IMG/VR virus record: IMGVR_UViG_3300035698_007281 | Coordinates: 1 to 64,000 of that record | DNA length: 64,000 nt | Source: a virus | Strand: one strand, 5' to 3' | In this document: in pieces, positions 5,124-61,876 of the stretch | Position numbering within the stretch: position 1 is the stretch's first letter | Layout of the letters: each line of letters starts with the position of its first letter | Notes under the pieces: generated by a model | What the model was told of the DNA's origin: nothing | What the model saw: only the letters and a program-made list of their open reading frames with translations | Databases searched by the model: none | Made by a program: the position numbers and the translations under genes

Positions 5124-5989
5124 TGGCCCTAGACTCAACCAAAACTCTGGCCCAACTCGCGGAGGTGAAACGATACCTCCAGATCCCGGAGTCCGACACT
5201 TCCGACGACCGCCTGATCGACGAACTGATCACCGTGGCCTCCCAGGTGATCCGGAACGATGTGGGATGTGACATCGTCCAGGCCACCTACACCAACGAGG
5301 CCCACGATGGGGATGGTGGGTGTCATCTCTTCCTGGACAACTGGCCCCTGGTCGGGGTGGACAATCTATCGGTGGGCTTCGCGGCCTCATGCACGGTCAC
5401 GTACACAGGTACAGGCACACACGCGACTGTGGAGGTCCGGAGCGACCGTGTACGCCTCCGACACGCCGAGGTCGGTGTCTGGACCGCCACCGAGTTCCTC
5501 TTCTCGTCCTACGCAACCCTGACCCTCCTGGCCGCCGCTATCGAGGCCGTCAGTGGATGGGGGACCAGCGTGGTCTCCGGATACGGGAACTATCCGGTGA
5601 CCGAGGTCCTGGCCAGACCGGCCAGAAGCGCCTTGAACCGGGCCGTGGATTTTGAAGTCCCTGACGAGTGTGAGACCGAGTACGAGATCTTCAACTCACC
5701 GAAGGCGGTCGTCTTTTCATCCTATGGGTTCACCGGGGGGACCAAGAACGTCTTCGTCACTTACACGGCCGGGTACTTGCGGAGCGAGATCCCTGAACCC
5801 CTTCGGTCGGCGTGTTCGGAACTCACCGCCCTGGTCTTCCGCCAAGCCAAGCGGGATATGACGATGTTGGAGGAGGATATCGGCGACTACCGGTACAAGG
5901 CCGTGGCGTCCGTCAAGGCCGTCTACGAGACTTCGATGTTGCCCCTGAAGACTCAACCCTATTCCCGGCCCATGATTTACGGAGCGTGA
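5123..5989 (+). CDS. Head-tail connector protein (gp6-like)
   Basis: 288 residues. The N-terminal helix pair (QLAEVKRYLQIPESDTSDDR with LIDELITVASQVIRNDVG) is the usual signature of phage gp6-like head-tail connectors, which form the ring below the portal. The protein is longer than the usual 100-200 residues, with a beta-rich insertion at about residues 60-180. The C-terminal half (AGYLRSEIPEPLRSACSELT and ALVFRQAKRD) returns to the connector-family helical pattern. It directly precedes the closure, gp10 and tail-terminator genes, the canonical HK97-like order. Confidence 0.7.
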   Translation: MALDSTKTLAQLAEVKRYLQIPESDTSDDRLIDELITVASQVIRNDVGCDIVQATYTNEAHDGDGGCHLFLDNWPLVGVDNLSVGFAASCTVTYTGTGTHATVEVRSDRVRLRHAEVGVWTATEFLFSSYATLTLLAAAIEAVSGWGTSVVSGYGNYPVTEVLARPARSALNRAVDFEVPDECETEYEIFNSPKAVVFSSYGFTGGTKNVFVTYTAGYLRSEIPEPLRSACSELTALVFRQAKRDMTMLEEDIGDYRYKAVASVKAVYETSMLPLKTQPYSRPMIYGA

Positions 5990-5992
5990 TCC

Positions 5993-6343
5993 ATGAGCGT
6001 CCGATCTCTATGCAACAAGACGGCTACGGTGAACTCGAAGACCCGGTCCGTCCGGAACGAGTACGGTGGTTGGGTTGAGACCGACACCGCCAAGTTCACG
6101 GATATGCCGATTCGGATTGCGCCCATTAAGGGTGATGAACACCGCCTATACAACATGGAACGGACTGTGGTGACCAACAAAGGTTTCGTTCCTCTCGACG
6201 GGACCGACTACTCCACGATTTCTAGGGATGATGAAATTGTGGTTGACGGGATCACCTACGAGATCCACGTCGTGCGAAACATCGACTTGATGGGGTCCCA
6301 CTTGGAGATCATGCTCCGACAGGTGGATCCCGAGGTGACTTGA
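5993..6343 (+). CDS. Head closure / head-tail adaptor protein
   Basis: 116 residues, mostly beta, with the shape of phage head-tail joining proteins: an N-terminal CNKTATV strand, a central IRIAPIKGDEH, then DEIVVDGITYEIHVVRNID and a terminal strand LEIMLRQV. Such proteins (SPP1 gp16/HK97 adaptor type) plug the connector and receive the tail. Size and position, between a gp6-like connector and a gp10-like protein, agree. Start has GGAGCG just upstream and follows the previous stop by three bases. Confidence 0.65.
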   Translation: MSVRSLCNKTATVNSKTRSVRNEYGGWVETDTAKFTDMPIRIAPIKGDEHRLYNMERTVVTNKGFVPLDGTDYSTISRDDEIVVDGITYEIHVVRNIDLMGSHLEIMLRQVDPEVT

Positions 6344-6344
6344 T

Positions 6345-6791
6345 ATGCCTTATGTGTGGTACGGAAAAAAGGTGAAATGGGAGATCCTCGATTGGACCAG
6401 GAAACGTTTGATTGAGGCGGCTTTCCTGTATGAACAGACCATCAAACTCTCCATGAAGAAGGGAGGCCGGACAGAATCCGGCTTTGCGCGGCCCCGCCGG
6501 GGGACTAAACGAACCATGGAGGATCCCCTTTCCGGGAAGAAGGTCGGGAAGATTAACTCCCACCGGTCCAAGCCGGGAGAGGTTCCTCGTGTCCAGACAG
6601 GCCGTCTTCGGCGGTCGATCACAACGTGGTTTCACCCTAAACTCCCGATTGCTAGGGTGGGAACTAATGTGAAGTATGCGAAACCCTTGGAACTGGGAAC
6701 CCGGCGAATGAAACCCAGGCCCTTCATGCGTCCGGCTCTGATGAAAGTGAAAGGTAAGATCGTGGCCATGTTTGCCAAGGGAAAAAAGTAA
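6345..6791 (+). CDS. HK97 gp10-like tail component / tail-completion protein
   Basis: 148 residues, strongly basic. The core has PGEVPRVQTGRLRRSITTW, then ARVGTNVKYAKPLELGTRRM and PRPFMRPAL, the motif order (P-x-x-x-TG-L-R-x-S-I, Y-A-x-x-x-E-x-G, R-P-F-x-x-P-A) of the HK97 gp10 family. These proteins sit at the head-tail junction or act in tail completion. It follows the closure gene by one base and precedes the tail-terminator-like gene. Confidence 0.8.
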   Translation: MPYVWYGKKVKWEILDWTRKRLIEAAFLYEQTIKLSMKKGGRTESGFARPRRGTKRTMEDPLSGKKVGKINSHRSKPGEVPRVQTGRLRRSITTWFHPKLPIARVGTNVKYAKPLELGTRRMKPRPFMRPALMKVKGKIVAMFAKGKK

Positions 6792-6831
6792 AGTTTGGAT
6801 CTCCCCAGGCCGATTACTTGGATAGGAAAAC

Positions 6832-7239
6832 ATGCTTCAACAGATACTGAAGATCATCCCGGCAACGATCAACGCCGACAGTGACTTGTCGGCCACACTG
6901 TCGTCTGATGTCTACTTCGACGAGGTTCCCCCGGACGGAACGGTGGGGATGCCCTATATCACGTATCACGTTGTGGGTGGGCCTTCCCCGATGATGGTGT
7001 TCGACCCGAACACGTCGTGGGATGAAGTCCTGGTCCAGGTCTCGATCTTCGAGGATACGCTACACAATCCGGCGGCCATCGAGATCATCGCCAGTGATGT
7101 TGATCTTCTCTTCCACCGCCAGATTTTGTCGTTTGATGGCGCAACCCACGTCGGTTGTGTCCGTTCAGGTGGGACCGGCCCGACCCGCCTGGATGATTGT
7201 TGGCAACGGACCATTGATTACACCATCGAACTTCTCTAG
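6832..7239 (+). CDS. Tail terminator-like protein (DUF3168-type position and pattern)
   Basis: 135 residues. The features DVYFDEVPPDGTVGMPYITY, then VQVSIFEDTLHNPAAIEIIASDV and a final strand WQRTIDYTIELL, match tail-terminator proteins of the gpU/DUF3168 class: short helix, strand with P-Y-I-x-Y, and a helix with A/I spacing between strands. The protein would cap the tail tube before joining to the head. It lies between gp10-like and tail-tube genes, as expected. There is a 40-bp gap before it without other features. Confidence 0.65.
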   Translation: MLQQILKIIPATINADSDLSATLSSDVYFDEVPPDGTVGMPYITYHVVGGPSPMMVFDPNTSWDEVLVQVSIFEDTLHNPAAIEIIASDVDLLFHRQILSFDGATHVGCVRSGGTGPTRLDDCWQRTIDYTIELL

Positions 7240-7251
7240 GAGGCGTGCAAA

Positions 7252-7632
7252 ATGGCGGCAGTAAAAGGCTATACCGGACAGGTTGACCTCGGATTGGTTG
7301 TGGACTCGGATGTGGCCTACGCCACACACTCGTGGTCACTGAACCTCTCCGCTGAAACCAACGACATTACCGACTTCACCACCACCGGGTGGCGGAAGTT
7401 CCTGGCCGGACTCAAAGGCTGGGACGGCAGCGTGGAACTCTACGTGGATTCGACCAATATGATCCAGCCCTCCGATGTCGGGAGCGAGGTCACCGGCCGG
7501 TTCTACTTTAACGCCACCAACGGCCTGTCCGGCCTGTGTTTGATCACCGGCTGGAACCCGTCGGTCGGCGTCGAGGGCGTCGAGACCCAGACCCTGAACA
7601 TCCAGGGATCGTCGGATCTGACGTACTTCTAA
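7252..7632 (+). CDS. Major tail tube-like protein, short paralogue
   Basis: 126 residues. The core pattern HSWSLNLSAETNDITDFTTT, GWRKFLAGLKGWDGSVELY, then a terminal TGWNPSVGVEGVETQTLNIQ, is typical of small phage tail tube proteins that stack as hexamer rings. RBS TAGGAGG precedes the ATG. The next gene is a longer paralogue sharing the DFxTTGWRxFxAGLKGWxGS block, so one may be the tube and the other a tube variant or tip/adaptor subunit. Confidence 0.65.
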   Translation: MAAVKGYTGQVDLGLVVDSDVAYATHSWSLNLSAETNDITDFTTTGWRKFLAGLKGWDGSVELYVDSTNMIQPSDVGSEVTGRFYFNATNGLSGLCLITGWNPSVGVEGVETQTLNIQGSSDLTYF

Positions 7633-7666
7633 ACCACTCTGGCCCCTTGACACAGGAGGTGGTCAC

Positions 7667-8296
7667 ATGACCGCGCTCAAAGGATATGTAGGGGCGTTCT
7701 ATATTGTCAGTGATGCGTCGGTCTACTCCGACATCTCGGCCGAAGCAGTAGGTACGGGAACGGGAGCGGCCACCGACTTCGCACTGGTGAACGAGAACGT
7801 CGAGGACGACCCCGATCTCCTGACCGTGGCGGTCAGTGGGGTCAGCCAACAAAGGGGCGCGGACTTCACGTTCTCGCCCGACGGCCGGATCGTATTCTCC
7901 ACGGCCCCAACCAGTGACTATCTCGTGACGGCGGACTACCGGTATTACCCCAACATGATTCAGGCCGGTGGGTTCTACAGTTGGGCCTTCGAGGTTTCCT
8001 CCGAGACCCTTGACGACACCGACTTCTCCACCACCGGATGGCGGTCGTTCTGCGCCGGTCTCAAGGGTTGGACTGGGTCGGCCGAGAGGCATTGGTCCAC
8101 CCTGGTCACGTCGGACTTCATAACCATGGTCGGCAGTAAGACCATCGTCAAGTTCTTCCTGGACGAGGGCAACGTGAAGTACTACACCGGCTGGGCGCAG
8201 GTCACGGGTGTGAACCCGTCCACCTCCGTCGAGGCCTTGGTCGAAGAACCCCTGACGCTACAGGGGACGGAGTTGATGCGAGGCGTCGGGACGTAA
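7667..8296 (+). CDS. Major tail tube-like protein, long paralogue with inserted beta-sandwich
   Basis: 209 residues. The N-terminal 20 residues and the last 120 align with the preceding tube-like protein (DFSTTGWRSFCAGLKGWTGS against DFTTTGWRKFLAGLKGWDGS, and GVNPSTSVEALVEEPLTLQG against GWNPSVGVEGVETQTLNIQG). Between them, at about residues 25-95, is an extra module, VAVSGVSQQRGADFTFSP followed by GRIVFSTAPTSDYLVTADY. That resembles the beta-sandwich element found in many phage structural proteins. Strong RBS ACAGGAGG. Which copy forms the tube cannot be decided from sequence. Confidence 0.65.
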   Translation: MTALKGYVGAFYIVSDASVYSDISAEAVGTGTGAATDFALVNENVEDDPDLLTVAVSGVSQQRGADFTFSPDGRIVFSTAPTSDYLVTADYRYYPNMIQAGGFYSWAFEVSSETLDDTDFSTTGWRSFCAGLKGWTGSAERHWSTLVTSDFITMVGSKTIVKFFLDEGNVKYYTGWAQVTGVNPSTSVEALVEEPLTLQGTELMRGVGT

Positions 8297-8329
8297 CCCT
8301 GGACCTCCCAACCTTAGGAGAGGATGACG

Positions 8330-8845
8330 ATGTCGAAGACAAGCAACAACCTGGACGAGGCCCTCGGCCGTGAACTGGAAGTGGAACTCGGTGGGAACGT
8401 GTACAAGATGAGTCCCTTGACTATGGGGGACTGGAAGGACTTCCGGGGCCATGTCCGGGGTCAGCGGATCAGGGCTGCCTTGGAGGGAGTCGGTGATACC
8501 CTGGACGCCGAAGACAAGAGATCCATTGTGGTCCAGTTGTCGTCGGCGGTGATCACTGAGTTCGAGCAGGCGCAAGAGTTCCTCACTCCGGAGGGGATCT
8601 CGTACATGTTGTGGAGATCCATCCGCCGGAACCATCCGGAGGTGACATGGTCCCAGATCGAAGAGGTCGTGGCCGACGAGGATCTCGACAAGTTGATGGC
8701 CCTCCAGGAGGGCCTGAACGTGGATCTCGAAGAGGACGGTGATGAGGCGGACCCTCCGGAGGGGGAGACACCTTCCGGTGGGACTATTGCGTCTCCCTCC
8801 TCCAGTGGCACTACAAGTTCTCCCTCCAAGACATCCTCGACCTGA
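8330..8845 (+). CDS. Tail assembly chaperone, short (gpG-like) product
   Basis: 171 residues, helical and acidic (LDEALGRELEVELGGNVYKM, then WKDFRGHVRGQRIRAA). The position between tail tube and tape-measure genes, and an open frame in -1 phase running from its C-terminal region to 9006, identify it as the upstream half of a G/GT chaperone pair that coats the tape measure during tail assembly. The in-frame ATG at 8330 is preferred over 8324 because AGGAG (8316-8320) is nine bases away. The last 20 codons are Ser/Thr/Pro-rich, as expected of a read-through segment. Confidence 0.75.
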   Translation: MSKTSNNLDEALGRELEVELGGNVYKMSPLTMGDWKDFRGHVRGQRIRAALEGVGDTLDAEDKRSIVVQLSSAVITEFEQAQEFLTPEGISYMLWRSIRRNHPEVTWSQIEEVVADEDLDKLMALQEGLNVDLEEDGDEADPPEGETPSGGTIASPSSSGTTSSPSKTSST

Positions 8846-9006
8846 CTCCGTCCCAGTTCAGGATCAGGTTGGGTGATGTGTTCGAGATTCTCTCACACAT
8901 GAACTCGCCCGACGGCAAAGGCCGAATCGTGAAGGAGGACCGGCGGAAGATCGCGGCCAAGATCGCGGACAAAGGAATCAGACCCCCGGTGTTCATTCCA
9001 GGCTAG
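8330..9006 (+). CDS. Tail assembly chaperone, -1 frameshift (gpGT-like) product
   Basis: Predicted fusion of about 225 residues made when a fraction of ribosomes shift to the -1 frame within 8746-8778. The downstream frame is closed by TGA at 8740 and 8743, opens after them and continues as WDYCVSLLQWHYKFSLQDIL then DLTPSQFRIRLGDVFEILSH to TAG at 9004-9006. This is a protein-like segment with no start of its own. The G-rich GGGGGAG at 8761-8767 is the likely slip site. Known for many long-tailed phages; here inferred from frames and context. Confidence 0.65.
8759..8767 (+). other. Candidate -1 programmed frameshift site
   Basis: In the G frame the codons are GAG GGG GAG. A one-base backward slip over GGGGGAG lets the GGG-decoding tRNA re-pair perfectly in the -1 frame. 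It lies between the last -1-frame stop (8743-8745) and the first clearly protein-like -1-frame residues (8779 on). It is not the canonical X-XXY-YYZ heptamer, since the second codon slips GAG to GGA, so the exact slip position is uncertain. Confidence 0.45.
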
Positions 9007-9018
9007 TAGGAGTTTCCC

Positions 9019-11730
9019 ATGGCGTCGAAGTTGACCGAGTTGTATGTTCAGTTCTCGACCAAAGGACTGGCCCGTGTCCAGGGCGCGATGGGCAAACTTC
9101 ACGCCAACATGAAGACCATCAGCGCGGGGGCCGATCAGATTGGGCGACACACCAAGAGGGCGCTTATGGCCGTTGGTGGGTTCGCGGCCTTGGCCATCCG
9201 TGAGGCGGCTAAGTTCGAGGCCCAGTTGGCCGAAGTCAACACCATGTTGGACAAGGGGTCGATGCACCACCTCGCCAATTACGAGAAGGGCCTTCGTCGG
9301 TTGGCCACCACCTACGGCGAGTCCACCCAGACCCTGGCCAAGGGTCTGTACGACATTCTCTCGGCCTCGGTCGAACCGGGTAAGGCTATGCAAGTCCTGG
9401 AGGTCTCAACCAGAGCGGCCGCCGGTGGACTGACCGACACTGGTGTGGCGGCCGACGCCATCACCACCATCCTCAACGCCTACGGCATGAACGCGGCCGA
9501 GGCCGGGGACATCTCCGACAAACTCTTCGCCACCGTCAAGCGGGGTAAGATCACGTTCGGCCAGTTGGCCTCCTCCATCGGTAAGGTTGCGGCCACCGGC
9601 AACATGGCGGGTCTTAGCTTGGAGGAACTCTTGGCCTCGGTCAGTACCATCACACGCGCGGGCATCTCGGCCGATCAGGCGATGACGGCCATCCAGGGAA
9701 CTCTTCGTTCGTTCTTGAAACCCGCCACCGAGGCCAAGAAGGTCTTCAAGGAATTGTATGGACGAGAGATGAATGTTGCCACCCTGAGGGCCGAAGGCCT
9801 ACAGAAGATACTCCTCGGACTGAAGGACGCCACCGCGCAGCAAGTGGCGGCCATGTTTCCGAACATTAGAGGGTTGAAGGGCGTAGCGGCGGCCATGGGT
9901 GACGCGGCCGGGCTGGCCACGGATCTCACCATGCAAATGAACGCCGGAGGGATGGCCACCGACGCCTTCCGTAAACGGCAACAGACATTGTCCTTCCAGT
10001 TAAACCGAGTGAAACAGGGCTTCTTTGAGATCCTCCGGGCCGTGGGTAAAGCGTTGATGCCGGAGATGAGAGAGTTCTCAGACTGGATGTTGAGCCTCAC
10101 GCGCGCCATCGCCAGGAATGCGGACAAGATCGCGGCTTGGATCAAGAAGATCGTCATGGTCGGGATCAAGGTCTTGGCCGTGGTTGGGACCATCAAACTG
10201 ATCACCGCCGCCCTGGGTGTGTTGAATTCCGTCATGCAGGGATCTCCGATTGGAATCATCCTCCGGATCGCCGCCGCCGTTGCGATCTCGATGGGGGCGT
10301 GGAGCGCGTTCGACGGGATCATGGGAGACGTAAAGAAGGGAATGGATGGGTTCATTGAGTCATCCAGAACTCTGACCGACATCATGGAAGACCAGCGGGA
10401 GGCGATGGAGTCGGGACAGGCCGAGTCCCGTGGAATGGTGGATGAGTTGGAGTCCATCATCAACAGCGAGGACCGGTCCTACACCGCGCACGCGAGGGTG
10501 TCCGAGATCATTTCAGAACTCTCGATGAAGTATCCCAAGTTGGCTAGTATCTTAAGCCGGTTGACGGGGGACCAGGAGGCGCAGACGAACGCCGTCAAGG
10601 ACTACAGCAAGGCCCTCGTGGAACAACAACGGCAAGAAGCCCAGGCCCTTCGGAAGAAGGAACTGGGTCAGGCCCAGGATCAGTACACAAAAGTCCAACG
10701 GCGTCGAGGTTCTATTGACAAGGACATCGAGAAGTTCACAGCGATGGAGGTCAAGCGGCGGGCCGCAAGGACTTTGTACGCCGGGAGGGTTGCGAAACAA
10801 TCTACCTTTGGGACCAATATGGGGGATGCTTGGTCGGCCGTGGGTGGAGAGTCCGAGACCGGGAAGTACAGGAAGGCCAAGAAGGACCACATCTACGCCA
10901 AACAAAGGTTGAAGGAACTCCATGAGGAGAAGAAGAAACTTGGGAGACAAGCGGGGGAATCCCAGGGCGTCTTCGACAAGTACAACAAACAGGACGCGAT
11001 GGAGCGTGAGGCCGAGAAGTCCCGCGCGAAACGCAAGAAGGATCTGGCCACTAGGGTCTCCAAAGATACTACACGCGAGGAAGCCGAGGCAGCCAAGAAA
11101 CTCGCGGACGAGCGTGGGAAGAACAACCTAAAGGCGAACGTTGCCCTTGTCAAGTCTGAATGGAATGGTGTCGAAGACAAACACAAACGGGAACTCGGTC
11201 TGATGAAGGTCCGCCACTTCGAGGAGAAGAAGTCCGCCGAGAAGTTGAACGTGGACATGGGCATCATCAAGAAGCGTCAGGCCGTCGAGATCGCCAACCT
11301 TGAAGCGAGGACGGCCGAGGAGAACGCCAAGAAAGCGGAGCGCCTGGCGGATCACAAACAAGGTAAGTCCCGATCCTGGCGTCAGGATCTGACCAGTGGC
11401 ATCATGAAGGGTCTCCCGGAAGACATGCGCCGGAAGCTGGAGGCTGATGACTGGTGGGGGAAAATGTATGATCGGATGAGTGAAGAGGAACGAGCCAATC
11501 CGGAGATTGCGGCGGCGGCCAAGGAAGTCTACCACAGTATGGTCGAGGGGGCGGCTCCTGGTGGATCGTTCCAGGGACTGGGGGCGGTCTCGAAACAGGC
11601 GCAACAACAGGCCTTCAAACAAGACTCTACGATGGTCAAACTTTATGGACTGGCGAAGGAACAGATGGAGTTGTTCCGGAAGTGGGACAAGGAAAAGGCC
11701 GACAAGGCCGTGGCCAAACTTGGCCCCTGA
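9019..11730 (+). CDS. Tail tape measure protein
   Basis: 903 residues. The N-terminal third carries the TP901-type tape-measure core (KFEAQLAEVNTMLDKG, TTYGESTQTLAKGLYDILSA, GVAADAITTILNAYG, LASSIGKVAATGNMAGLSL). A hydrophobic segment at about residues 375-435 follows (IVMVGIKVLAVVGTIKLITA). The rest is long charged coiled coil rich in Lys/Glu/Arg. Such proteins set tail length and pass into the cell during DNA entry. By the usual 0.15 nm per residue the tail would be about 135 nm. RBS TAGGAG precedes the ATG; it follows the chaperone frame by 12 bases. No lysozyme or peptidase motif is seen. Confidence 0.9.
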   Translation: MASKLTELYVQFSTKGLARVQGAMGKLHANMKTISAGADQIGRHTKRALMAVGGFAALAIREAAKFEAQLAEVNTMLDKGSMHHLANYEKGLRRLATTYGESTQTLAKGLYDILSASVEPGKAMQVLEVSTRAAAGGLTDTGVAADAITTILNAYGMNAAEAGDISDKLFATVKRGKITFGQLASSIGKVAATGNMAGLSLEELLASVSTITRAGISADQAMTAIQGTLRSFLKPATEAKKVFKELYGREMNVATLRAEGLQKILLGLKDATAQQVAAMFPNIRGLKGVAAAMGDAAGLATDLTMQMNAGGMATDAFRKRQQTLSFQLNRVKQGFFEILRAVGKALMPEMREFSDWMLSLTRAIARNADKIAAWIKKIVMVGIKVLAVVGTIKLITAALGVLNSVMQGSPIGIILRIAAAVAISMGAWSAFDGIMGDVKKGMDGFIESSRTLTDIMEDQREAMESGQAESRGMVDELESIINSEDRSYTAHARVSEIISELSMKYPKLASILSRLTGDQEAQTNAVKDYSKALVEQQRQEAQALRKKELGQAQDQYTKVQRRRGSIDKDIEKFTAMEVKRRAARTLYAGRVAKQSTFGTNMGDAWSAVGGESETGKYRKAKKDHIYAKQRLKELHEEKKKLGRQAGESQGVFDKYNKQDAMEREAEKSRAKRKKDLATRVSKDTTREEAEAAKKLADERGKNNLKANVALVKSEWNGVEDKHKRELGLMKVRHFEEKKSAEKLNVDMGIIKKRQAVEIANLEARTAEENAKKAERLADHKQGKSRSWRQDLTSGIMKGLPEDMRRKLEADDWWGKMYDRMSEEERANPEIAAAAKEVYHSMVEGAAPGGSFQGLGAVSKQAQQQAFKQDSTMVKLYGLAKEQMELFRKWDKEKADKAVAKLGP

Positions 11731-11742
11731 GGAGAGTGACTT

Positions 11743-12513
11743 ATGGCAGCAGTTCTGAGTGATGCAACCAAACTATGGGACGGGTACTCCGAGGGACACA
11801 CCACCTCGGCCCAGACGATCACCGAAACGTATCGGTGCGCGTGGAGTGATCGGACTGCTATACGTTCGTCGTTCATGGGATCGTTCCACTCGGAGTTCGT
11901 TTACGATGTCTGCACTGATGTAAAGGTCAGGCCCCTGGGAGATCCGAACACGGTCGCGGGCGGTCCCAAACAAGCACTCCTCACATGCACCTACAAACCG
12001 GCGACCTTCGTGACACCGGAGGAGCGGCCGGTTGATACGGATTGGGCCAACTGGACTGAGAACTGGCAAAGCGGCGGCGAGGCCCTCCAGATGGGTAAGG
12101 GATTCAAGTGGTCCACCGCCCCGAAATCTGACCTGTCGAAGACCGGGGTCCAGGCCGTTCGGGTGTTCCCCAACGCGGCCCTCTCGATCACCGGCAAAGT
12201 GAACACCGTCTCGAAGGCTGATATCCTCTCAACCATCGGAAAAGTCAATTCGACGGCCGTGACCATCAAAGGGTACGAGTACCCCATTGGGAAACTTCTT
12301 TTTGAGGGTGCGGATCTCAACGAACAACAGCAAGCCGACGCCTCCGACGCGGCCTACAATGTGACCCTGAAGTTCTCCTACAAACACGTCTCCATCTGGA
12401 ACCAGATCTGGAGGCCGGACACCTCAAAGTGGGACGGGATCGAGGATCAGGCCGGGAACCCGATGTATTCCGAGGCGGACTTCACAGCGACCCTAGATCC
12501 TTCGACGTGGTAA
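11743..12513 (+). CDS. Minor tail protein candidate, unknown family
   Basis: 256 residues, soluble, beta-rich, with no signal peptide or motif I recognise. Segments such as TETYRCAWSDRTAIRSSFMG and AAYNVTLKFSYKHVSIWNQI suggest a structural protein. It is directly downstream of the tape measure (12 bases, GGAGAG RBS), where distal-tail or baseplate hub proteins are normally encoded. Assignment rests on position only. Confidence 0.5.
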   Translation: MAAVLSDATKLWDGYSEGHTTSAQTITETYRCAWSDRTAIRSSFMGSFHSEFVYDVCTDVKVRPLGDPNTVAGGPKQALLTCTYKPATFVTPEERPVDTDWANWTENWQSGGEALQMGKGFKWSTAPKSDLSKTGVQAVRVFPNAALSITGKVNTVSKADILSTIGKVNSTAVTIKGYEYPIGKLLFEGADLNEQQQADASDAAYNVTLKFSYKHVSIWNQIWRPDTSKWDGIEDQAGNPMYSEADFTATLDPSTW

Positions 12514-12517
12514 ACCA

Positions 12518-13690
12518 ATGCCGACTCAACCAAAAAGATTGGCGGACTGGAAGTCAGGGGATCCCCTCTCGGCCGCGAGGCTGAACGAGGTCCAGCATAT
12601 TCTCCGGAGTATCCTCCGGGTATCGGCCCCCCTCCAACTACAAAGTCTCACGGGGGGCCTGTACCTGACCATGGACGAGGCCGGTGGGGGTTGGTTTGGT
12701 GAGGTTGTCGCGTCGGATCTGGTATCCACGTCGGACTACTCCGACGCGCGGTACTTCGTCAAGCCGGTGGATGCGGCCACCGATGGATCCGGCGATGATG
12801 CCATGGTTGCGGTATTCGACGCCGTCTTCCCGGCGGCGGCCGACTCTGATACCATCACGGCCACCAATATCCGAGAACTGGGGAAGGACACACATGGCCT
12901 GACCACTGGGGACAAGGTCTGGATCTTCGATGTCCCCCGCACGGGTAACGATGCACTCAACGACCATTTCTTCCTCAAGGACGTTCCCGCCGGGCGGAAG
13001 TTCGCATTGGCAAAACAGAACTGGTCCACCAGTATCTACCCCTCGGCGGGCCAGTGCCGGGTGATCCCGATGACTGATGAACAGATCCCTCCGGTCAATT
13101 CCGACGGAGAGATCACCGCCTTCATCTTCGGGCCAAGTGATACGAACAGCAGATCCTGGGGAACGCCCAACGTTGTCTCCGGGATGGTCGTGTCTTACAC
13201 CATGGACGCCAACGGGAAGGCCTGGATCGATTATCCCCCATCGGCCGTCCAGGACGGTGTGGCGGCTCGATCCCTGGAGATGTGGAACGGCCCCTCCGAT
13301 TCGATGCCCTCCGGGTGGGTGTTCTGTAATGGCCTCCTTGGGACGCCTGATATGCGGGGGCGTGTACCCGTGGGCGTGTGGAGTGACACGGGGGGAATCC
13401 CCGCCGGTCTGGCGGCCAGTGACTCGGTTGGGGAGACCGGAGATTACGCCGCGCCGATGGAGGTTGGTGGGACGCCGTTCATGAAGAACGTCTATGTGGA
13501 ACATGATCCCCACGGCCACACAACCACAACTTGTATTGCCAGCCAACAGGCCTTGGATTTTACATTCGTGTATACAATCAACGCGGCGACCGTGGCGGCC
13601 CATTCGGACTGGTACGATTTCCGGCAACCCTACACTGTGGTCGGGTTCATGATGAGATCTGATAACTCGATCACCTGGACAGGAGAGTAG
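12518..13690 (+). CDS. Tail protein with C-terminal collar domain
   Basis: 390 residues. Near residue 265 the sequence DSMPSGWVFCNGLLGTPDMR-GRVPVG matches the phage tail-collar domain signature (P-x-GW-x-x-C-x-G then TPD-x-RGR-x-P-V-G) seen in short tail fibres and collar proteins. The N-terminal half has an oligomeric-fibre look (SAARLNEVQHILRSILRVSA). The end, PYTVVGFMMRSDNSIT, is the strand pattern that usually closes collar domains. Likely part of the adsorption apparatus. Confidence 0.7.
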   Translation: MPTQPKRLADWKSGDPLSAARLNEVQHILRSILRVSAPLQLQSLTGGLYLTMDEAGGGWFGEVVASDLVSTSDYSDARYFVKPVDAATDGSGDDAMVAVFDAVFPAAADSDTITATNIRELGKDTHGLTTGDKVWIFDVPRTGNDALNDHFFLKDVPAGRKFALAKQNWSTSIYPSAGQCRVIPMTDEQIPPVNSDGEITAFIFGPSDTNSRSWGTPNVVSGMVVSYTMDANGKAWIDYPPSAVQDGVAARSLEMWNGPSDSMPSGWVFCNGLLGTPDMRGRVPVGVWSDTGGIPAGLAASDSVGETGDYAAPMEVGGTPFMKNVYVEHDPHGHTTTTCIASQQALDFTFVYTINAATVAAHSDWYDFRQPYTVVGFMMRSDNSITWTGE

Positions 13691-13694
13691 AACC

Positions 13695-14246
13695 TTGGGA
13701 GAGGAAAAATTCAACATCGAGAACGCGGCGGCCTTCGTCAACTGTTTCCCACGGGGCCACTGTGACCCGACGATCCCCGTGTGGTTGATCCAGGCGGGCC
13801 TCTCGGCCAAACGATTCATGACGTACTCGAAGCGGGAGTACCCCATCGAGACGTGTTACAATCTCGCCATCAAGGCGGCCATTGAGAATCCGGTCCTGAA
13901 GGATGTGGGTTGGTTCATCTTCAGCGACAACGATATGATCCTCGGCGAGGAACTTCAACCCTGGTTCTCGGCCGAGGGTGACGTGGTGGGGGTGACTTAC
14001 GATATGGGGGATCTCAACCGAACCTGGGGGAGGTCGGATTCGTTTCATTCTGGACTCTGGCGGGCGAGGCGGGATGTCCTCGAAAGGGTTCACGCGCCGT
14101 GGTTCGATACGGTCTTGACTGACGATGGGTGTGACATCGACAAATGTTGTTGTGAGTATTTCGCCCGGAAGGTTCGCGCCTACGGGTATACAATCACCCG
14201 CGCCGGTTGGGCCGGTCACGGGGTTTCAACAGGTCAGCAAACCTGA
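13695..14246 (+). CDS. Glycosyltransferase-like protein (GT-A type)
   Basis: 183 residues. VGWFIFSDNDMILGEEL contains a DxD-type acidic motif at the end of a strand, as in metal-dependent GT-A glycosyltransferases. YPIETCYNLAIKAAIENPVL upstream and GLWRARRDVLERV downstream fit the GT2 layout, but the protein is shorter than usual. The start is taken as TTG at 13695 because AGGAG sits nine bases upstream and no ATG is near. Within the late operon it could modify a virion or cell-surface glycan. Confidence 0.5.
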   Translation: MGEEKFNIENAAAFVNCFPRGHCDPTIPVWLIQAGLSAKRFMTYSKREYPIETCYNLAIKAAIENPVLKDVGWFIFSDNDMILGEELQPWFSAEGDVVGVTYDMGDLNRTWGRSDSFHSGLWRARRDVLERVHAPWFDTVLTDDGCDIDKCCCEYFARKVRAYGYTITRAGWAGHGVSTGQQT

Positions 14247-14262
14247 CCAAGGAGATGACGCC

Positions 14263-15003
14263 ATGAAGAAGCTGACGATCCTCGCCGTTGTTCTCACAAT
14301 CCCGTTGATCGCGTTATTTGCATGTTCGGACGCCTACCCTTTCAGGCCCGTCGCGGATCAACAGGTCGTCCTGGCCTCTGAGGGGGTCCCTGTGGAACTC
14401 GCCAAGGCCGAGGCGGCCGTGGAGGGGGAGGTGTCCTTGGCGCTCGTTAAAGAGGCCAAGGAGGCCTCCAAGGCGGTCGGGAAATACGTCCGGGGCGGGG
14501 GCGACTCGAAAAACGTATGGAAGCCCAGCGAGGCCACCAAACAAGTGGCGGGCCTAGTCGTGACGGATCTCCGGAAGGCCATGGAGTTGGAGGAGGGTCC
14601 GGAGGCCTCGGCGGCCCTGGCGGCCGCGCACGAGAAGGCGGCCCAGGTCCAGGCCTGGGTGGGTTTCCCGGAGATCCCCCTAGTTCCCCTCGACCCGATC
14701 AACAAGGAAGCATTCCTCCGGGTCCAGGCCCAACCGGTCATCCCCACCGCCTCCGACCGGGTCAATGCCGGGATTGACGAGGGAATGGCCTGGGCTGATA
14801 TAGCGGCCCTGATCGCGTCCGGCTTTGGCGCGGGTGGGGCGGCCGTCGGCCTAATCTACCTCCGCAACCGGAAGCAAGTCCGGGCGGCCCAGGAAGTCCT
14901 GAAGAATGGCGTGAAGCCTCTGACCGATGAACAAGCCGACCGCCTCCTGACTCAACTGGAGGAGCGGGCGAAGGAGACAGACAATGAACCTACGAAGGCC
15001 TAA
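14263..15003 (+). CDS. Membrane-anchored lipoprotein-like protein, possible lysis-related
   Basis: 246 residues. An N-terminal signal (MKKLTILAVVLTIPLIALFAC) ends in a Cys that could be a lipoprotein site. A long Ala/Glu-rich helical region follows, then a second hydrophobic segment near residues 190-215 (IAALIASGFGAGGAAVGLIY) before a charged tail. AAGGAG precedes ATG 14263. Two membrane anchors around a helical spacer recall spanin- or holin-associated proteins, but no family is recognised. The end overlaps the next gene by 20 bases. Confidence 0.5.
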   Translation: MKKLTILAVVLTIPLIALFACSDAYPFRPVADQQVVLASEGVPVELAKAEAAVEGEVSLALVKEAKEASKAVGKYVRGGGDSKNVWKPSEATKQVAGLVVTDLRKAMELEEGPEASAALAAAHEKAAQVQAWVGFPEIPLVPLDPINKEAFLRVQAQPVIPTASDRVNAGIDEGMAWADIAALIASGFGAGGAAVGLIYLRNRKQVRAAQEVLKNGVKPLTDEQADRLLTQLEERAKETDNEPTKA

Positions 15004-15736
15004 ACTTTTCATTCTCGCCTTGACCGCCGTAGTGGTTCTGGGGTGCGCCGATACTGGCGCACCCCAGACCGTTGTGGTCCACGTTCCTCCCCGACAGGTC
15101 CAGGTCACCGAGTGGCCGGATCAATCGGGGGTCGTGCCTGTGTGGTGCGCTTTCCAGATCAAGGACGCCTGGGCATCCCCTATTTTTCGTGGGTCCGGGA
15201 CCGTTGTCCGGAAAGAGGGGGGTAAATGGTGGATTCTGACCTGTGAACACGTCATTTCATTCCAATCCCTGAAGTGGGTAGGGGTGACCGGTGTGAAGAT
15301 CTACTTGGGGAACGGGAAGCGGCTCTGTACGGTATTCCGTAGGGATCCCCTGTCAGACCTTGCAGTCCTGGAGATCGTTGATCCTGGGGCATCCTGGCGG
15401 CCCTACCGGGTATCCACGGAGGCCTTGGCCATGGGCCAGAAGGTCTTCTCCCTGGGGGTTGGTCTGGTTCCGCCCCTGGGGGAGGGAGATCCGCCGGTCT
15501 ATGCCACCCACACCCAACCGGGCCACGTATCCTCGGCAACGGTGGATCCACAGATCCCCACCAATTGTTCGATCAAGGGCGGCTTCTCCGGCGGCCCCCT
15601 CCTGAACACCAGGGGAGAACTGATCGGGGTCAACCGCGCGGCCAATGGGCCTGGGTATTCCTACCACATCCCGATCACCCAGGCCATGATCGTCGAGGAG
15701 GTCTGGACTACGCCAGCGCGACCTTCCGGCCCGTGA
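14984..15736 (+). CDS. Trypsin-like serine protease, lipoprotein
   Basis: 250 residues. Lipoprotein signal ends VVVLGC at residue 21. The chymotrypsin-fold catalytic triad is visible as His89 (ILTCEHVIS), Asp125 (DPLSDLAVLE) and Ser202 (KGGFSGGPLLN), in the order and spacing of HtrA/Deg-type proteases. There is no PDZ domain after the catalytic domain. It would act outside the cytoplasmic membrane. It overlaps the upstream lipoprotein gene by 20 bases and runs tail-to-tail into the sigma-like gene by 29 bases. Such a protease is uncommon in a phage late operon. Confidence 0.8.
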   Translation: MNLRRPKLFILALTAVVVLGCADTGAPQTVVVHVPPRQVQVTEWPDQSGVVPVWCAFQIKDAWASPIFRGSGTVVRKEGGKWWILTCEHVISFQSLKWVGVTGVKIYLGNGKRLCTVFRRDPLSDLAVLEIVDPGASWRPYRVSTEALAMGQKVFSLGVGLVPPLGEGDPPVYATHTQPGHVSSATVDPQIPTNCSIKGGFSGGPLLNTRGELIGVNRAANGPGYSYHIPITQAMIVEEVWTTPARPSGP

Positions 15737-16253
15737 TCTTCTCCCGGATCTCGTTGAGGATCTTGTTCTGGCGGTAGCGGGGGATTCCCAGGAACTCGAA
15801 GACCCGTTTCCGCTTTGTGACGGGGTTGGTCTTGTTCGGGATGATCAGGCCCTCGGCTCCGTTTGCCATGGCCTCGGCGAAGGCCAAGGCGTCCTTCGAC
15901 GGGGCGTTGATGAACAGGGCGCTGATCTTGGGGGTGGTAGCGTCAGCGGCGGTCAACCCATCCACGTCGTATTCGTATATGGTGCGGACCCGTTTCCTCA
16001 TGGCCTTGTCGAGGAGTTTGGAGAAGCATTGGCCCAGGCGGGTGTGAAAGGGGGTCATGAACGAACTACGGGCCGGGTCGAAGTCTTCGACCAGTTTGAT
16101 GTATACGATCATCCCCTCCTGGACGATGTCATCGTACTGGATCGCGCCGGGTTTGGGCATTCTCGCCCAGCAGTAGTTGGCCTGTTTGTGGACGAGTTTC
16201 ATGTACGACTCACGGTGTTCCTCGGTTCCGGGTTTGGCGGTGGTCTGGGTCAC
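15708..16253 (-). CDS. Sigma-70 region 2-like transcription factor
   Basis: 181 residues from a GTG at 16253 with AAAGGA eight bases upstream. The segment YDDIVQEGMIVYIKLVEDFD then PARSSFMTPFHTRLGQCFSK follows the sigma70 region 2 pattern (D-D-x-x-Q-E-G-x-x-x-x-x-A-x-x-x-FDP). The C-terminus (RVFEFLGIPRYRQNKILNEI) could be a region 4-like helix-turn-helix. It may switch host RNA polymerase to late genes, as alternative sigma factors do in other phages; no cognate late promoter was identified. It has its own promoter copy at 16389-16417. Confidence 0.6.
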   Translation of the reverse strand: MTQTTAKPGTEEHRESYMKLVHKQANYCWARMPKPGAIQYDDIVQEGMIVYIKLVEDFDPARSSFMTPFHTRLGQCFSKLLDKAMRKRVRTIYEYDVDGLTAADATTPKISALFINAPSKDALAFAEAMANGAEGLIIPNKTNPVTKRKRVFEFLGIPRYRQNKILNEIREKITGRKVALA

Positions 16254-16388
16254 GGGGCGTTCCTTTGGGTGGTAGACAAACAAGAAGCCGGGAACGAATG
16301 GGAAAGGGACGGGAACCCACTCGTTCGACCGGCTTCAAGTTCTGTTTGTCTTGTCGTGATCACTGTGTTGTCCCTTGTGCGTCGGTTC

Positions 16389-16417
16389 AGTATATCGGGC
16401 GGCGGTGAGGTACGCAA
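16389..16417 (-). promoter_or_regulatory. Sigma70 promoter, diverged copy of the reiterated cassette
   Basis: Minus-strand TTGCGT (16417-16412), 17-bp spacer, TATACT (16394-16389). The T-rich block just upstream (AACTTTCTTGATTTTC) is shared with the other copies. The leader reaches the GTG of the sigma-like gene after about 130 bases. Nothing else is seen in 16254-16440. Confidence 0.6.
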
Positions 16418-16440
16418 GAAGAAAATCAAGAAAGTTTCTC

Positions 16441-16635
16441 TCAGGCCGGTAGGGCCGTCTGGTCGGAGGTGTCGAAGTCGTAGGAACCTTCGGGGGTTTT
16501 GATCTGGACGATCAGGATACCGGCCACGTTGAATGGGTGGATCTCCCGGATCTCGTCCAGGTGGAGGGCCGCCTCCCCGTTCAGGCGGCGGAAGGTGTTG
16601 ATGGCCTTCAGGGCTTTGGCGATTGAGTATCTCAT
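16441..16635 (-). CDS. Small protein, unknown
   Basis: 64 residues, N-terminal amphipathic helix (IAKALKAINTFRRLNGEAAL) then a beta part (VAGILIVQIKTPEGSYDF). ATG 16635 has AAAGGGA nine bases upstream. It is the second gene of a two-gene unit after 16955-16659, driven by the promoter at 17003-17031. No family recognised. Confidence 0.55.
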   Translation of the reverse strand: MRYSIAKALKAINTFRRLNGEAALHLDEIREIHPFNVAGILIVQIKTPEGSYDFDTSDQTALPA

Positions 16636-16658
16636 GTTGAGTCCCTTTCTGGTTGGGT

Positions 16659-23204: not shown

Positions 23205-23720
23205 CTAGAGAATGATCCCCAGGTGACGTTCGGTGATATCGGCCCAGTTGTTCCGGAAGGGTTCGGTGGGGACGCCTGTCCGCCGGGCGGCCTCGTAGAT
23301 CCTGGTGGTGAGGACCGGGATCTGGAATTCCTGACCGGAGGTGAAGTCGTCAACGAACAAGCGGAACGTCTTCGGTGTTCTGCAACCACGGATCTCATCC
23401 GCCCCGATGACGGCCATCTTGTGTTCGGCGGCTTCGACCACGATGATTTCATCAAAGGTGAAACCATGGAAATTCAACCAGTCCAGGGTGGCCTCCCCTT
23501 CCATATCCCAGGGGCGGGCCGTTAGGATGAAGATCTTCCACCCGGCGTTCTCGAACTCGTCCAAAGCTTCTTTGGCGAGTGGGAGCGGTTGGTCGGTGAT
23601 CGTGTTCTTAAACGCCTCCTGGGGGTTGATTATCCCATTGGACGAAAACTCCCGGATCCGCTTCCAGTGGTTGTTCAGGGTGGAGTCAACATCGACGAAG
23701 AGAAGTTGTTGTTCAGACAT
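23205..23720 (-). CDS. HAD-superfamily phosphatase-like protein
   Basis: 171 residues from ATG 23720. HAD motif I FVDVDSTLN, motif II IFILTARPWD and a late acidic pair FVDDFTSG are in the right order. The small helical cap (ALDEFENAGW) and length fit phage HAD phosphatases such as polynucleotide 3'-phosphatase domains or nucleotidases. No kinase domain is attached. GGAG lies ten bases upstream. Substrate unknown. Confidence 0.65.
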   Translation of the reverse strand: MSEQQLLFVDVDSTLNNHWKRIREFSSNGIINPQEAFKNTITDQPLPLAKEALDEFENAGWKIFILTARPWDMEGEATLDWLNFHGFTFDEIIVVEAAEHKMAVIGADEIRGCRTPKTFRLFVDDFTSGQEFQIPVLTTRIYEAARRTGVPTEPFRNNWADITERHLGIIL

Positions 23721-24801
23721 TCGGTTTGATCTCCAGGTTGGTGGCGAGCGCCTCGAAGCATTCACGGAACAAGGTTTCCTTGTTGAGCCAATGCGTATAC
23801 ATGGGGCAAATTGCCTCGATGATCGGCCTCGACTCTTCGAGGAACGTTACAAGGGCGGGGTAAGACGGGTTGTAGAACGGAGGTTTGTCCCCGGCTCGGG
23901 GGTTCCCTGTGGAGAAGTCCGGTTGCACTTCCAGGAATACGGGAGCGCCGTTGCCCCGGAAGATCACGTCCACGCCCTGGAAGTTGAGGCCCAGGACATG
24001 GACGGCCCGGACGATTTCGGCCTCGTTGGCCAAACACCATTTCTGACAGTGTTGTTGGAATATGAGGAACGAGTGGCCCATGTCGGGGGTGAACTTGCCG
24101 GTGATGGCCACCCAGTCGGGGGCAATACACAGACGGGCGTAGGCGGTGACAACCTTGTCCCCGGCCACGATGATCCGGAGTGATTGCCTGTATCCCAGGT
24201 GTTCGGTCTCGATGAACTCTTGGACCACGATCTTCCGACCGAGGCCCGGACCCCATCGACGCTCGATATCGCCCGTGTCCGGTCCCCATCGACGCTCGAT
24301 ATCGCCCGTGTCCGGTCCCTTGAGATTCTCGATAGCGTCCCGGTATTCGTCGCCGGTCTGGCATAGGTATGAATGCTCCCCAGAGACTGAGTTGTTGAAC
24401 CGTACCAGGAGGGGGAGTCCGGTCGGGCCTTCCTCTTCGACGTACCTCCAGTTGGAGATCGGCACATCCTTATCGGCCCAACGCTTCCAGGCCACGTCCT
24501 TGGAATGAACGTTGGGGAACCCGTTAGGGTCGTTGATGGATGGCGCAACCCCATCCAGTTCCAACGCCAGGGCGCGGGCCTTGGTGAACTCTTCGGTGTT
24601 GGTTCGTTCGGCGTGGAGTTTCCAGTAGATGACCGAGACCCCGGCGACGGTCTCCGAGGGGTGTTCGTTCAGGGTGGACACCAGATCGTCGATGCCATAT
24701 TCGGTCACCGGCCCGAAGCAGTTCTCGAACTCGGCCTTCTCGTAAGGCCATCGCCATCGGTTCGGGTTGCGGGGGTCGGTGAAGACAACTATGGATCTCA
24801 T
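23713..24801 (-). CDS. ATP-grasp-like ligase
   Basis: 362 residues. KIVVQEFIETEHLGYRQSLR, then RIIVAGDKVVTAYARLC, and GLNFQGVDVIFRGNGAPVFL with EVQPDFS at the end follow the ATP-grasp C-terminal pattern (R-x-x-V, G-x-D, E-x-Q/N-P), in which carboxylates are ligated to amines or thiols. An 11-residue unit (GPDTGDIERRW) is exactly repeated at about residues 162-183 because of a 33-bp tandem duplication. It lies in an island with an aminotransferase and glycosyltransferases. Substrate unknown. Confidence 0.6.
   Translation of the reverse strand: MRSIVVFTDPRNPNRWRWPYEKAEFENCFGPVTEYGIDDLVSTLNEHPSETVAGVSVIYWKLHAERTNTEEFTKARALALELDGVAPSINDPNGFPNVHSKDVAWKRWADKDVPISNWRYVEEEGPTGLPLLVRFNNSVSGEHSYLCQTGDEYRDAIENLKGPDTGDIERRWGPDTGDIERRWGPGLGRKIVVQEFIETEHLGYRQSLRIIVAGDKVVTAYARLCIAPDWVAITGKFTPDMGHSFLIFQQHCQKWCLANEAEIVRAVHVLGLNFQGVDVIFRGNGAPVFLEVQPDFSTGNPRAGDKPPFYNPSYPALVTFLEESRPIIEAICPMYTHWLNKETLFRECFEALATNLEIKPNV
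24251..24316. repeat. 33-bp perfect tandem duplication
   Basis: Two identical 33-bp units, 24251-24283 and 24284-24316, inside the ATP-grasp gene. The length is a multiple of three, so the frame is kept and eleven residues are duplicated. Looks recent, since the copies are identical. Confidence 0.9.
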
Positions 24802-25712
24802 CAGTAGTTTCCTTTTGAAAGATCTCGAACAAAATCTCCATGGTCCTCATCTCTCCCGGACCACAGAAACACCTGATACCCGCGCTTGCCCCGATACAGT
24901 CCCCACTTTCCGGCGAACCGTTCAGACAACATCCCACAGGGGAAAGTGATGACCGGCCCCTCCCCCATTATCGACATGGGAAAATCTGACACGGCGTCTA
25001 TTATGTTTTTGCGGCGGGTTAGAATTTCCAGCCGGTGTTCCTTGAGGTCGAACTCCATCAACCTGGACCGCAGTTGAGCGAAGAGTTGAATGGCCGAAGT
25101 GTGGGGTGTCTCGTTACACTGGGCGAAGTTGATGCGGTCCCGTAGGGACAGTTCAGATCCGGCGAGCGCCGTTTGTTTGAACAGGTTCCGGAGAACCTTC
25201 TTGACCACGATGACCGATAGGCCGGGGGCAACGCCCAGGGCTTTCCCGGTCACGGTCACCCACACAGAGGCGTTGTCCGGAATCGGGTAGAACGGGAAGG
25301 CGGACACCATGTCATAGAACTTGGTTTGCCCTGGGGCGGCCGACCGGTTGTTCGTGGGGCGGGACTCGGCGGTCTCGTATGAACAAAAACAATTGAGGAT
25401 CTTTTGGTGGTGTCGGTAACCAACGGACGCCCAGAAAGTGCAGAGGCGGCGAAGGCGGTTAATGAATTCACCATCGTCATCTGGATCCGTGGCGAAACTC
25501 CCGCCCCAAGAGGCCAGGACGTTCTCGATGGCCAGAGTTCCGGATCCAGTAACGAAAAGAATTTCAAAGGTGTCCGGGATCTCGAACTTCTGACGGAAGA
25601 GTTTGGTTGTCACCCGGAGGAGGTTCTGGAAGTTGACGCTCCGGTGGTGGGTGTTTCCGTAATTGGTTGTTTGTATTTCACTAGGTCCGAACATGATTCC
25701 ATCGGTCTCCAT
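24801..25712 (-). CDS. PLP-dependent aminotransferase (fold-type I, class V-like)
   Basis: About 303 residues. MFGPSEIQTTNYGNTHHRSV, then FVTGSGTLAIENVLAS and VTVTGKALGVAPGLSVIVVK resemble the 2-aminoethylphosphonate-pyruvate/serine-glyoxylate aminotransferase group: N-terminal GP motif, the G-S-G-T phosphate-binding loop, and the Lys in TGKALG at the PLP position. The start is uncertain: ATG 25712 or ATG 25694, the latter beginning right at MFGPSEI as in the family. It overlaps the upstream glycosyltransferase gene. Likely supplies an amino-sugar or amino acid moiety, by context. Confidence 0.6.
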   Translation of the reverse strand: METDGIMFGPSEIQTTNYGNTHHRSVNFQNLLRVTTKLFRQKFEIPDTFEILFVTGSGTLAIENVLASWGGSFATDPDDDGEFINRLRRLCTFWASVGYRHHQKILNCFCSYETAESRPTNNRSAAPGQTKFYDMVSAFPFYPIPDNASVWVTVTGKALGVAPGLSVIVVKKVLRNLFKQTALAGSELSLRDRINFAQCNETPHTSAIQLFAQLRSRLMEFDLKEHRLEILTRRKNIIDAVSDFPMSIMGEGPVITFPCGMLSERFAGKWGLYRGKRGYQVFLWSGRDEDHGDFVRDLSKGNY

Positions 25713-26667: not shown

Positions 26668-26936
26668 TTCTCGGTCCTCAGGATGGAGAGATCGGTCCCA
26701 TGGTCCACCACCACGGCCTTGGTCCCCTCGGGGAGGATGTTCTTCAGCCGGGACATCCAGGCCCCCCTCATGAACTCGGCCGCCTTGTCCGGTAACGTAA
26801 CCACGAGAATGTCACCGGGTTGGAGTTCCAATTTGGAGATCCCGATCTCGAAGGAGTAGATCTTGACCTCCGGCGGGGGCTTGATCGGTGGTAGTGGTTT
26901 CGGTAGGGGGACGTTGGGTTTCAGATCTTCAGTCAT
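26664..26936 (-). CDS. Small protein with Pro-rich N-terminus, unknown
   Basis: 90 residues. A Pro/Lys-rich start (KPNVPLPKPLPPIKPPPEVK) leads to LQPGDILVVTLPDKAAEFM and EGTKAVVVDHGTDLSILR. The L-x-P-G-D-x-L-V-V ... V-V-V-D-x-G-x-D-L pattern recurs in small phage proteins of unknown role. ATG 26936 overlaps the deacetylase stop by eight bases; an in-frame GTG at 26945 is an alternative. Confidence 0.5.
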   Translation of the reverse strand: MTEDLKPNVPLPKPLPPIKPPPEVKIYSFEIGISKLELQPGDILVVTLPDKAAEFMRGAWMSRLKNILPEGTKAVVVDHGTDLSILRTEK

Positions 26937-27669: not shown

Positions 27670-27671
27670 GA

Positions 27672-61444: not shown

Positions 61445-61876
61445 ATGAACTTCCAGGCCCCCTGCAAGACAATCACCGTTGAGACCTCCAACAAGGAGAC
61501 CTTTAGCTTCACCCACCTCCTGATCAAGCTGACCTCTCGGAAGTTCCTGGTGGCCGTCGGTGTGTTGGTGGGTGGCCTGATCAAGGTCTTCACACGATCC
61601 AACGACCCCGAGAACATCGATCAGGTAGTGACCCTGACCTGCGCCGTGGGGGCTGCCATCGCCCCGATTGTCTACATCCTGGCCGAGGGCAAGGCCGACC
61701 GGGAACGGGAGCAGTACCTCCAGGAACATCAGGAGGACGTGGATCTCGACCTGAGTGATGGAGACCGGGAAGCCCTGGCCGCCGAACTGGGCCTCGGTGG
61801 TATCGAGCCGCCCCCCACTTGGGGTGGTCAGATTCCGCTGGGTGATGAACTCGACAAGGAACATCCCCCGGCCTGA
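61445..61876 (+). CDS. Holin-like membrane protein
   Basis: 143 residues. Two membrane helices, FLVAVGVLVGGLIKVF and VVTLTCAVGAAIAPIVYILA, separated by a short polar loop, and a long charged C-terminal tail rich in Glu/Asp. This is the layout of several phage holins. AAAGGAG precedes ATG 61445. No endolysin gene is adjacent, so the role is inferred; a head-associated membrane protein is an alternative. Confidence 0.5.
   Translation: MNFQAPCKTITVETSNKETFSFTHLLIKLTSRKFLVAVGVLVGGLIKVFTRSNDPENIDQVVTLTCAVGAAIAPIVYILAEGKADREREQYLQEHQEDVDLDLSDGDREALAAELGLGGIEPPPTWGGQIPLGDELDKEHPPA

Follow-up and report, generated by a model that had tools for sequence, protein, structure and literature searches.

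The window analysed here spans positions 1-64000 of a virus record of 93,511 bp and encodes a short trypsin-like protease (P0001) next to a spanin-like lipoprotein. The most likely function of P0001, in our view, is that of an envelope protease acting at host lysis and paired with the spanin-like protein; we give this reading a probability of about 0.45. A lysis role is possible because distant relatives of the protease lie in, or are fused to, the cell-bursting genes of other phages. Gene order places relatives of P0001 within the lysis cassettes of other phages and of prophages; for P0001 itself, a part in lysis is suggested by its fold, export signal and place in the genome. The enzyme fold and phage proteins named trypsin-like are already known; the proposed lysis role was not encountered in the open-access literature searched. 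As the protease is kept last in lysis cassettes despite a change of holin, and is also found in an M23-SLH fusion, a lysis role directed at envelope proteins is directly testable.

The protease and its spanin-like partner

The open reading frame of P0001 (250 aa) begins with ATG, and GAAGGAG is found 7 nt ahead of it. Pfam Trypsin_2 covers residues 70-216 (E 1.3e-19; 71.8 bits, cut-off 27.6) and Pfam Trypsin also matches (1.7e-7). The preliminary description of this DNA had proposed a trypsin-like enzyme with a complete triad, which we confirm: His89, Asp125 and Ser202 stand in His-Asp-Ser order and are invariant in our 7-row and 50-row alignments. The oxyanion motif GFSGGP fits GxSGG, and the pattern G.SGG[PAS] occurs in three of the 277 six-frame stretches of at least 100 aa in the window.

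The AlphaFold2 model of the protease (pLDDT 76, pTM 0.76) matches the protease domains of DegQ, DegP, DegS and HtrA1, with a best Foldseek E of 9e-13. VIA structure matching gave Z 23-25 over the matches listed (n=50); the protease domain of E. coli DegQ scored Z 24.8 with an rmsd of 2.4 over 177 aligned residues. P0001 is thus a Trypsin_2 peptidase with an HtrA-type fold and a predicted enzyme. No PDZ domain was found in Pfam at E<=1, and the chain stops 34 residues past the Trypsin_2 match. The NCBIfam model degP_htrA_DO scored 48.4 bits, below its cut-off of 416.2. The earlier label "HtrA-type" therefore holds for the fold but not for the PDZ domain, and for lack of the latter the protein is best described as an HtrA-type protease domain standing alone. 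It shares the fold, triad order, GxSGG motif and (as predicted) export with HtrA and DegP-DegQ-DegS, and differs from them in the missing PDZ domain, the lipoprotein-type signal and its position as a phage late gene.

The lipoprotein signal noticed earlier was recovered as a lipobox-like sequence by motif and Kyte-Doolittle scan (Table 1), and a linker separates it from the trypsin-like domain. Read from these motifs, the protease would be exported, lipid-anchored and placed at a membrane. In E. coli, the +2 rule governs the outer-membrane sorting of lipoproteins. The residue following the lipobox cysteine is Ala in the protease and Ser in its partner, which by this rule would allow sorting to the outer membrane if the host has one.

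The partner gene, described earlier as a coupled membrane lipoprotein-like gene, indeed overlaps the protease gene by 20 nt. Cys21 of its lipobox is the sole cysteine of the protein. The hydrophobic segment near residues 180-198 reaches a Kyte-Doolittle value of 1.90, has a net charge of -2 before and +4 after it, and is followed by a tail of about 45 residues. No other called protein of the record combines a lipobox with a second, downstream hydrophobic segment. The protein thus shows an N-terminal lipoprotein signal (by motif), a C-terminal transmembrane domain (by hydropathy) and no periplasmic cysteine, the last being given as a criterion for unimolecular spanins in excerpts of PMC6139136. 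The unimolecular spanin T1 gp11 likewise has an N-terminal lipobox, a C-terminal hydrophobic segment, no later cysteine and a place at the end of a gene block; the same script assigned it lipobox Cys22 and a segment from residue 107 with a value of 2.97. However, T1 gp11 is shorter (133 residues) and lacks the long tail past the segment, and, unlike it, the partner has no recognised holin or endolysin beside it and is followed by a protease gene. In PHROGs, the best match of the partner is a weak one to a holin family, located over the membrane segment (E 0.021). Pfam and NCBIfam gave no match, and a single-sequence fold was uninformative (pLDDT 47).

The record carries phage capsid, portal, terminase, tape measure and maturation protease families. 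Its first 127 bases recur as its last 127, and the genome is therefore probably complete, with a circular map of 93,384 bp. A second viral contig corresponds to window positions 5299-16652 with 100 % identity across 11,354 bp. Host contamination of the assembly, which the preliminary description had named as a possible refutation, is ruled out by the overlapping ends, the structural families and the identical viral contig. The protease gene closes a rightward block with tail-type genes upstream, from which we read the block as late. The end of the block is marked by a convergent gene, whose Sigma70_r2 match is weak (22.2 bits, under the Pfam cut-off of 24). A promoter scan found none, and a terminator scan found 4 against 2.7 expected.

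Table 1. Positions of the protease, its partner and other features discussed in the text (window coordinates unless marked as record)
Feature	Position	Strand	Basis or remark
Probable tape measure protein, 903 aa	9019..11730	+	Assigned by size and sequence; PHROG tape measure families and Pfam PhageMin_Tail among 31 late proteins
Tail gene	11743-12513		Close relatives in viral contigs only in the identical contig
Tail collar / tail fibre-like protein, late block	12518..13690	+	PHROG tail protein, 6.8e-6 (scanned from 12539)
183-aa protein directly 5′ of the lipoprotein pair	13695..14246	+	No PHROG match at E<=1
Partner: membrane lipoprotein with unimolecular-spanin architecture, 246 residues	14263..15003	+	Lipobox LFAC (Cys21), C-terminal hydrophobic segment
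P0001: PDZ-less secreted trypsin-like protease, probably lipid-anchored	14984..15736	+	Trypsin_2, triad, AlphaFold2
Lipoprotein-type signal of P0001	14984..15046	+	Basic n-region, hydrophobic core, lipobox VLGC with Cys21
Convergent gene, end of rightward late block	15708..16253	-	Sigma70_r2, 1.2e-4
Possible holin; membrane protein (by eye) between terminase and portal genes	61445..61876	+	PHROG phrog_297 at 0.086 only
Head maturation protease, Peptidase_S78_2/XkdF	within record 79037-80392		E 2e-17
Possible holin; 58-residue XhlA-shaped protein (by eye)	record 92860-93036		No PHROG match

No endolysin had been visible near the pair in the preliminary description, and the same applies to the whole record: among 131 proteins, no endolysin family was recognised at Pfam E<=1e-3 in the families listed. 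The scan covered 130 of the 136 called genes, the six omitted being 30-62 aa long, and one uncalled ORF; ORFs in uncalled gaps fell outside it, e.g. most of the DNA methyltransferase ORF 50631-52727, and 47187-47771. For sets of 44 and 31 proteins all 17 and all 13 Pfam families were listed and none is an endolysin, and none appears for a further 55 proteins among 25 families listed of 43. Six-frame searches of the record for DUF5675 and Peptidase_M15_4 returned nothing. Two proteins of the record are possible holins (Table 1).

Relatives of the protease and their gene neighbourhoods

A scan of viral contigs with the 7-row alignment yielded 155 matching stretches. We retained 80, including one that is identical to the window. 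The other 79 loci comprise 61 with a longer, HtrA-like C-terminus and 18 that are short like P0001, defined as having no more than 85 residues between the GxSGG motif and the C-terminus. Lack of a PDZ domain was established by Pfam for P0001 and L035 and is presumed from length for the other short relatives, several of which carry a lipobox. Identity between P0001 and the short relatives is 25-31 %, so its function could differ from theirs. Close relatives of P0001, the partner and the tail gene 11743-12513 were found in viral contigs only in the identical contig, and searching phage records with the partner gave no match at E<=1.

P0001 matched 14 of the 50,697 named phage records at E<=0.01, and we opened seven of these. 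Host genes are annotated around the match in two, annotation is partial and does not reach the match in one, and four carry no annotation. Long HtrA-like proteins of 393-509 aa are encoded in six of the seven, and in L006 the reading continues to 544 aa across runs of N. We read all seven as bacterial HtrA and rejected them as phage relatives. The earlier statement that such proteases are rarely part of tailed-phage late genes is therefore upheld in part: the opened records look like host HtrA, but the 155 matching stretches in viral contigs speak against it.

Some of the longer HtrA-like proteases form a second class of phage-encoded protease. In L062 and loci judged similar by layout (L016, L029, L038, L043, L050, L051 and L058), they carry export signals and lie among replication or metabolic genes such as T4 RNase H, SprT-like and aldehyde dehydrogenase genes. 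Other long proteases (L033, L055, L064) adjoin tail genes of the T4 gp9/10 type.

We analysed the neighbourhoods of 15 of the 18 short loci, leaving out L032, whose protein starts like that of L031, the cut locus L030, and L061, which looks bacterial. A peptidoglycan hydrolase lies within 2.5 kb of the protease, or is fused to it, in six of the 15: Amidase_3 in L014 and L031, Peptidase_M15_4 in L015 and L022, and Peptidase_M23 in L047 and, as a fusion, in L035. The distance from the protease to the M23 or M15_4 gene is 577 nt in L047, 672 nt in L015 and 981 nt in L022. DUF5675 was found within 2.5 kb in three more loci (L013, L024, L025) and farther off in L060; the searches for this family and M15_4 covered 12 of these 15 viral records as well as the one containing the window. 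Neither a known hydrolase nor DUF5675 occurs within 2.5 kb in the remaining six loci (L053, L060, L073, L075, L078, L084), among the families listed (25 of 50). These six loci count against the lysis reading, and so does the fact that three of the other nine rest on DUF5675, a family with no assigned function. Judged by eye from gene order, the 15 loci represent about seven lineages, and lysis genes are present in three.

In L014 the order is amidase, holin, one further gene (probably Rha-type) and protease. L035 encodes a single M23-SLH-Trypsin_2 protein (E 4.9e-17, 1.6e-7 and 3.5e-29), two genes 3′ of an XhlA-like gene (E 2.6e-4, under the Pfam cut-off) and directly 3′ of a small hydrophobic protein with no Pfam match. 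As with P0001, the trypsin-like domain is on a viral contig, but here it shares one chain with an M23 hydrolase and an S-layer homology (SLH) domain, and by eye the protein has no export signal.

The strongest case for an association with lysis is the Paenibacillus cassette. The sequence of L031 is the same as a contig of Paenibacillus jilunlii and shows the order amidase, Holin_LLH, a 36-nt gap and a secreted trypsin-like protease. The protease is present in four of 100 genomes searched in this genus (E<=1e-30), P. jilunlii and three others, and a search of 296 genomes of the order returned the same four carriers. All four have Amidase_3 above cut-off just 5′ of the protease and a small membrane gene between the two, which is Holin_LLH above cut-off in two genomes and Hol44-like under cut-off in the other two (E 9e-4 and 3e-3). 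The protease is thus retained across a change of holin type. The cassette resembles the P0001 locus in having a short secreted protease 3′ of a membrane lysis gene (a putative one in our record), and differs in the sequence of the protease (about 30 % identity for L031), its signal, which by eye has no lipobox, and the recognised amidase.

As a control we used 130 of the 337 neighbour proteins of the loci with a long C-terminus, taken from 18 of the 40 such loci. The families listed, 25 of 79 and hence not a strict count, include one Phage_lysozyme; amidase, M23, M15 and holin families are absent from them. In one long-C-terminus locus, L059, an M15-like gene was seen by eye 3.3 kb from the protease. 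Such lysis genes near long relatives count against the lysis reading.

Possible functions of the pair

The preliminary description left lysis, envelope entry and exclusion open for the pair. We favour lysis, because relatives of the protease stand in lysis cassettes and the partner is spanin-like; nothing supports entry, as one would not expect a virion to contain a protein that carries a lipoprotein signal. In phage lysis, holin, endolysin and spanin account for the membranes and the wall. If P0001 acts at lysis, the spanin-like protein and the protease would be made late, exported and lipidated, and both would be held at the inner face of the outer membrane, provided that the host has one. 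Upon the action of holin and endolysin, the spanin-like protein would disrupt the membranes and the protease could cut envelope proteins, be it wall-membrane tethers, the S-layer or proteins that delay lysis, and this cleavage would speed phage release. The lack of a recognised holin or endolysin adjoining the pair, and of any recognised endolysin family in the record as scanned, counts against this reading. So does the origin of the best-supported cassettes, as Paenibacillus is a Gram-positive genus. A wider proposal, which we regard as tentative and rather doubtful, is that several unrelated groups of phages possess a further class of lysis protein besides holin, endolysin and spanin: a dedicated, secreted protease of the trypsin-like type that cuts the protein part of the envelope (S-layer or wall-membrane tethers) and would here be paired with a unimolecular spanin.

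Among titles and abstract beginnings of the open-access literature we found no report of a phage-secreted trypsin-like protease in lysis. In the excerpts of PMC6507118, PMC10213691, PMC9671378, PMC12596118 and PMC6139136 that were available, no phage lysis enzyme is assigned to the protein layers of the envelope. The excerpt of PMC6139136 states that a spanin was not found in about 13 % of the genomes of one survey and calls for other routes of outer-membrane disruption, and that of PMC6507118 names pfam13365, a trypsin-like peptidase, among virulence-type genes of staphylococcal phages. Database proteins named trypsin-like or HtrA from Rhizobium phage RHph_TM3_3_14B, Rhizobium phage AF3 and uncultured Caudovirales share the trypsin-like fold and are named by fold only.

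The first of these phages (L103) provides a contrary case. Next to attL, an attachment site annotated just 5′ of the gene, it encodes a trypsin-like peptidase of 236 residues whose N-terminal part contains a hydrophobic segment. An annotated lysozyme lies 2.9 kb away, followed by genes resembling Rz and Rz1. The protein is weakly similar to P0001 (blastp E 0.56). We found 11 related rhizobial viral loci and opened eight (L107, L109, L112-L117); by eye, a multi-span protein is encoded downstream of the protease in six of the eight, and a second membrane-anchored protein in seven. By eye, the multi-span protein resembles TolQ/MotA. The rhizobial locus has the look of a module for conversion or exclusion; phage proteases of the secreted trypsin-like kind therefore need not serve lysis.

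It is accordingly conceivable, if somewhat unlikely, that P0001 serves superinfection exclusion or receptor removal, clipping receptors or incoming phage proteins and thereby protecting the cell or stopping progeny from sticking to debris. The rhizobial prophages, in which a weakly similar protease and a conserved pair of membrane proteins lie close to an annotated att site, are consistent with this, as is the lipoprotein format, known for exclusion from T5 Llp and phi80 Cor. However, early or lysogen expression would be expected for such a function, and the gene ends a block that its neighbours suggest to be late; the holin and amidase neighbours in Paenibacillus prophages also point to lysis. 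We consider it improbable that P0001 is a captured host DegS/DegP-like domain for periplasmic quality control, clearing misfolded envelope proteins and keeping the cell alive until assembly is done. The HtrA-type fold would suit this task, and of the 79 other viral loci, 61 resemble HtrA proteins in the greater length of their C-terminal part, several being surrounded by replication or metabolic genes. But P0001 has no PDZ domain for substrate choice or caging, carries a lipoprotein-type signal, and its gene closes the late block next to a spanin-like one. A virion or assembly protease, finally, is very improbable. The gene does lie downstream of tail genes, yet its product has an export signal and matches no head maturation protease family in Pfam or PHROGs. 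Virion maturation, another refutation proposed in the preliminary description, was rejected in view of the separate XkdF-type gene, which would serve head maturation.

Further features of the record

An intergenic element is repeated in the early region of the window (16962-45068), with six copies of about 112 nt and a 53-nt core present nine times. Read on the minus strand, the core in many cases shows TTGACA followed about 17 nt on by a GATAAT-like box (by eye), so that the element looks like a repeated early sigma-70 promoter. The early region also contains sugar-related genes on the minus strand (23205-28529), placed by sequence, of the polysaccharide deacetylase, GT9 heptosyltransferase-type and GT1 families. 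A 1210-residue protein (record 72974-76606) resembles Phage Mu F head morphogenesis proteins in its N-terminal part and has a long C-terminal extension; the Mu F-like family was listed for the set of 31 late proteins and was placed on this gene by eye. Two tRNA genes, Met(cat) and Glu(ttc), are located outside the window at record 82862-83207.
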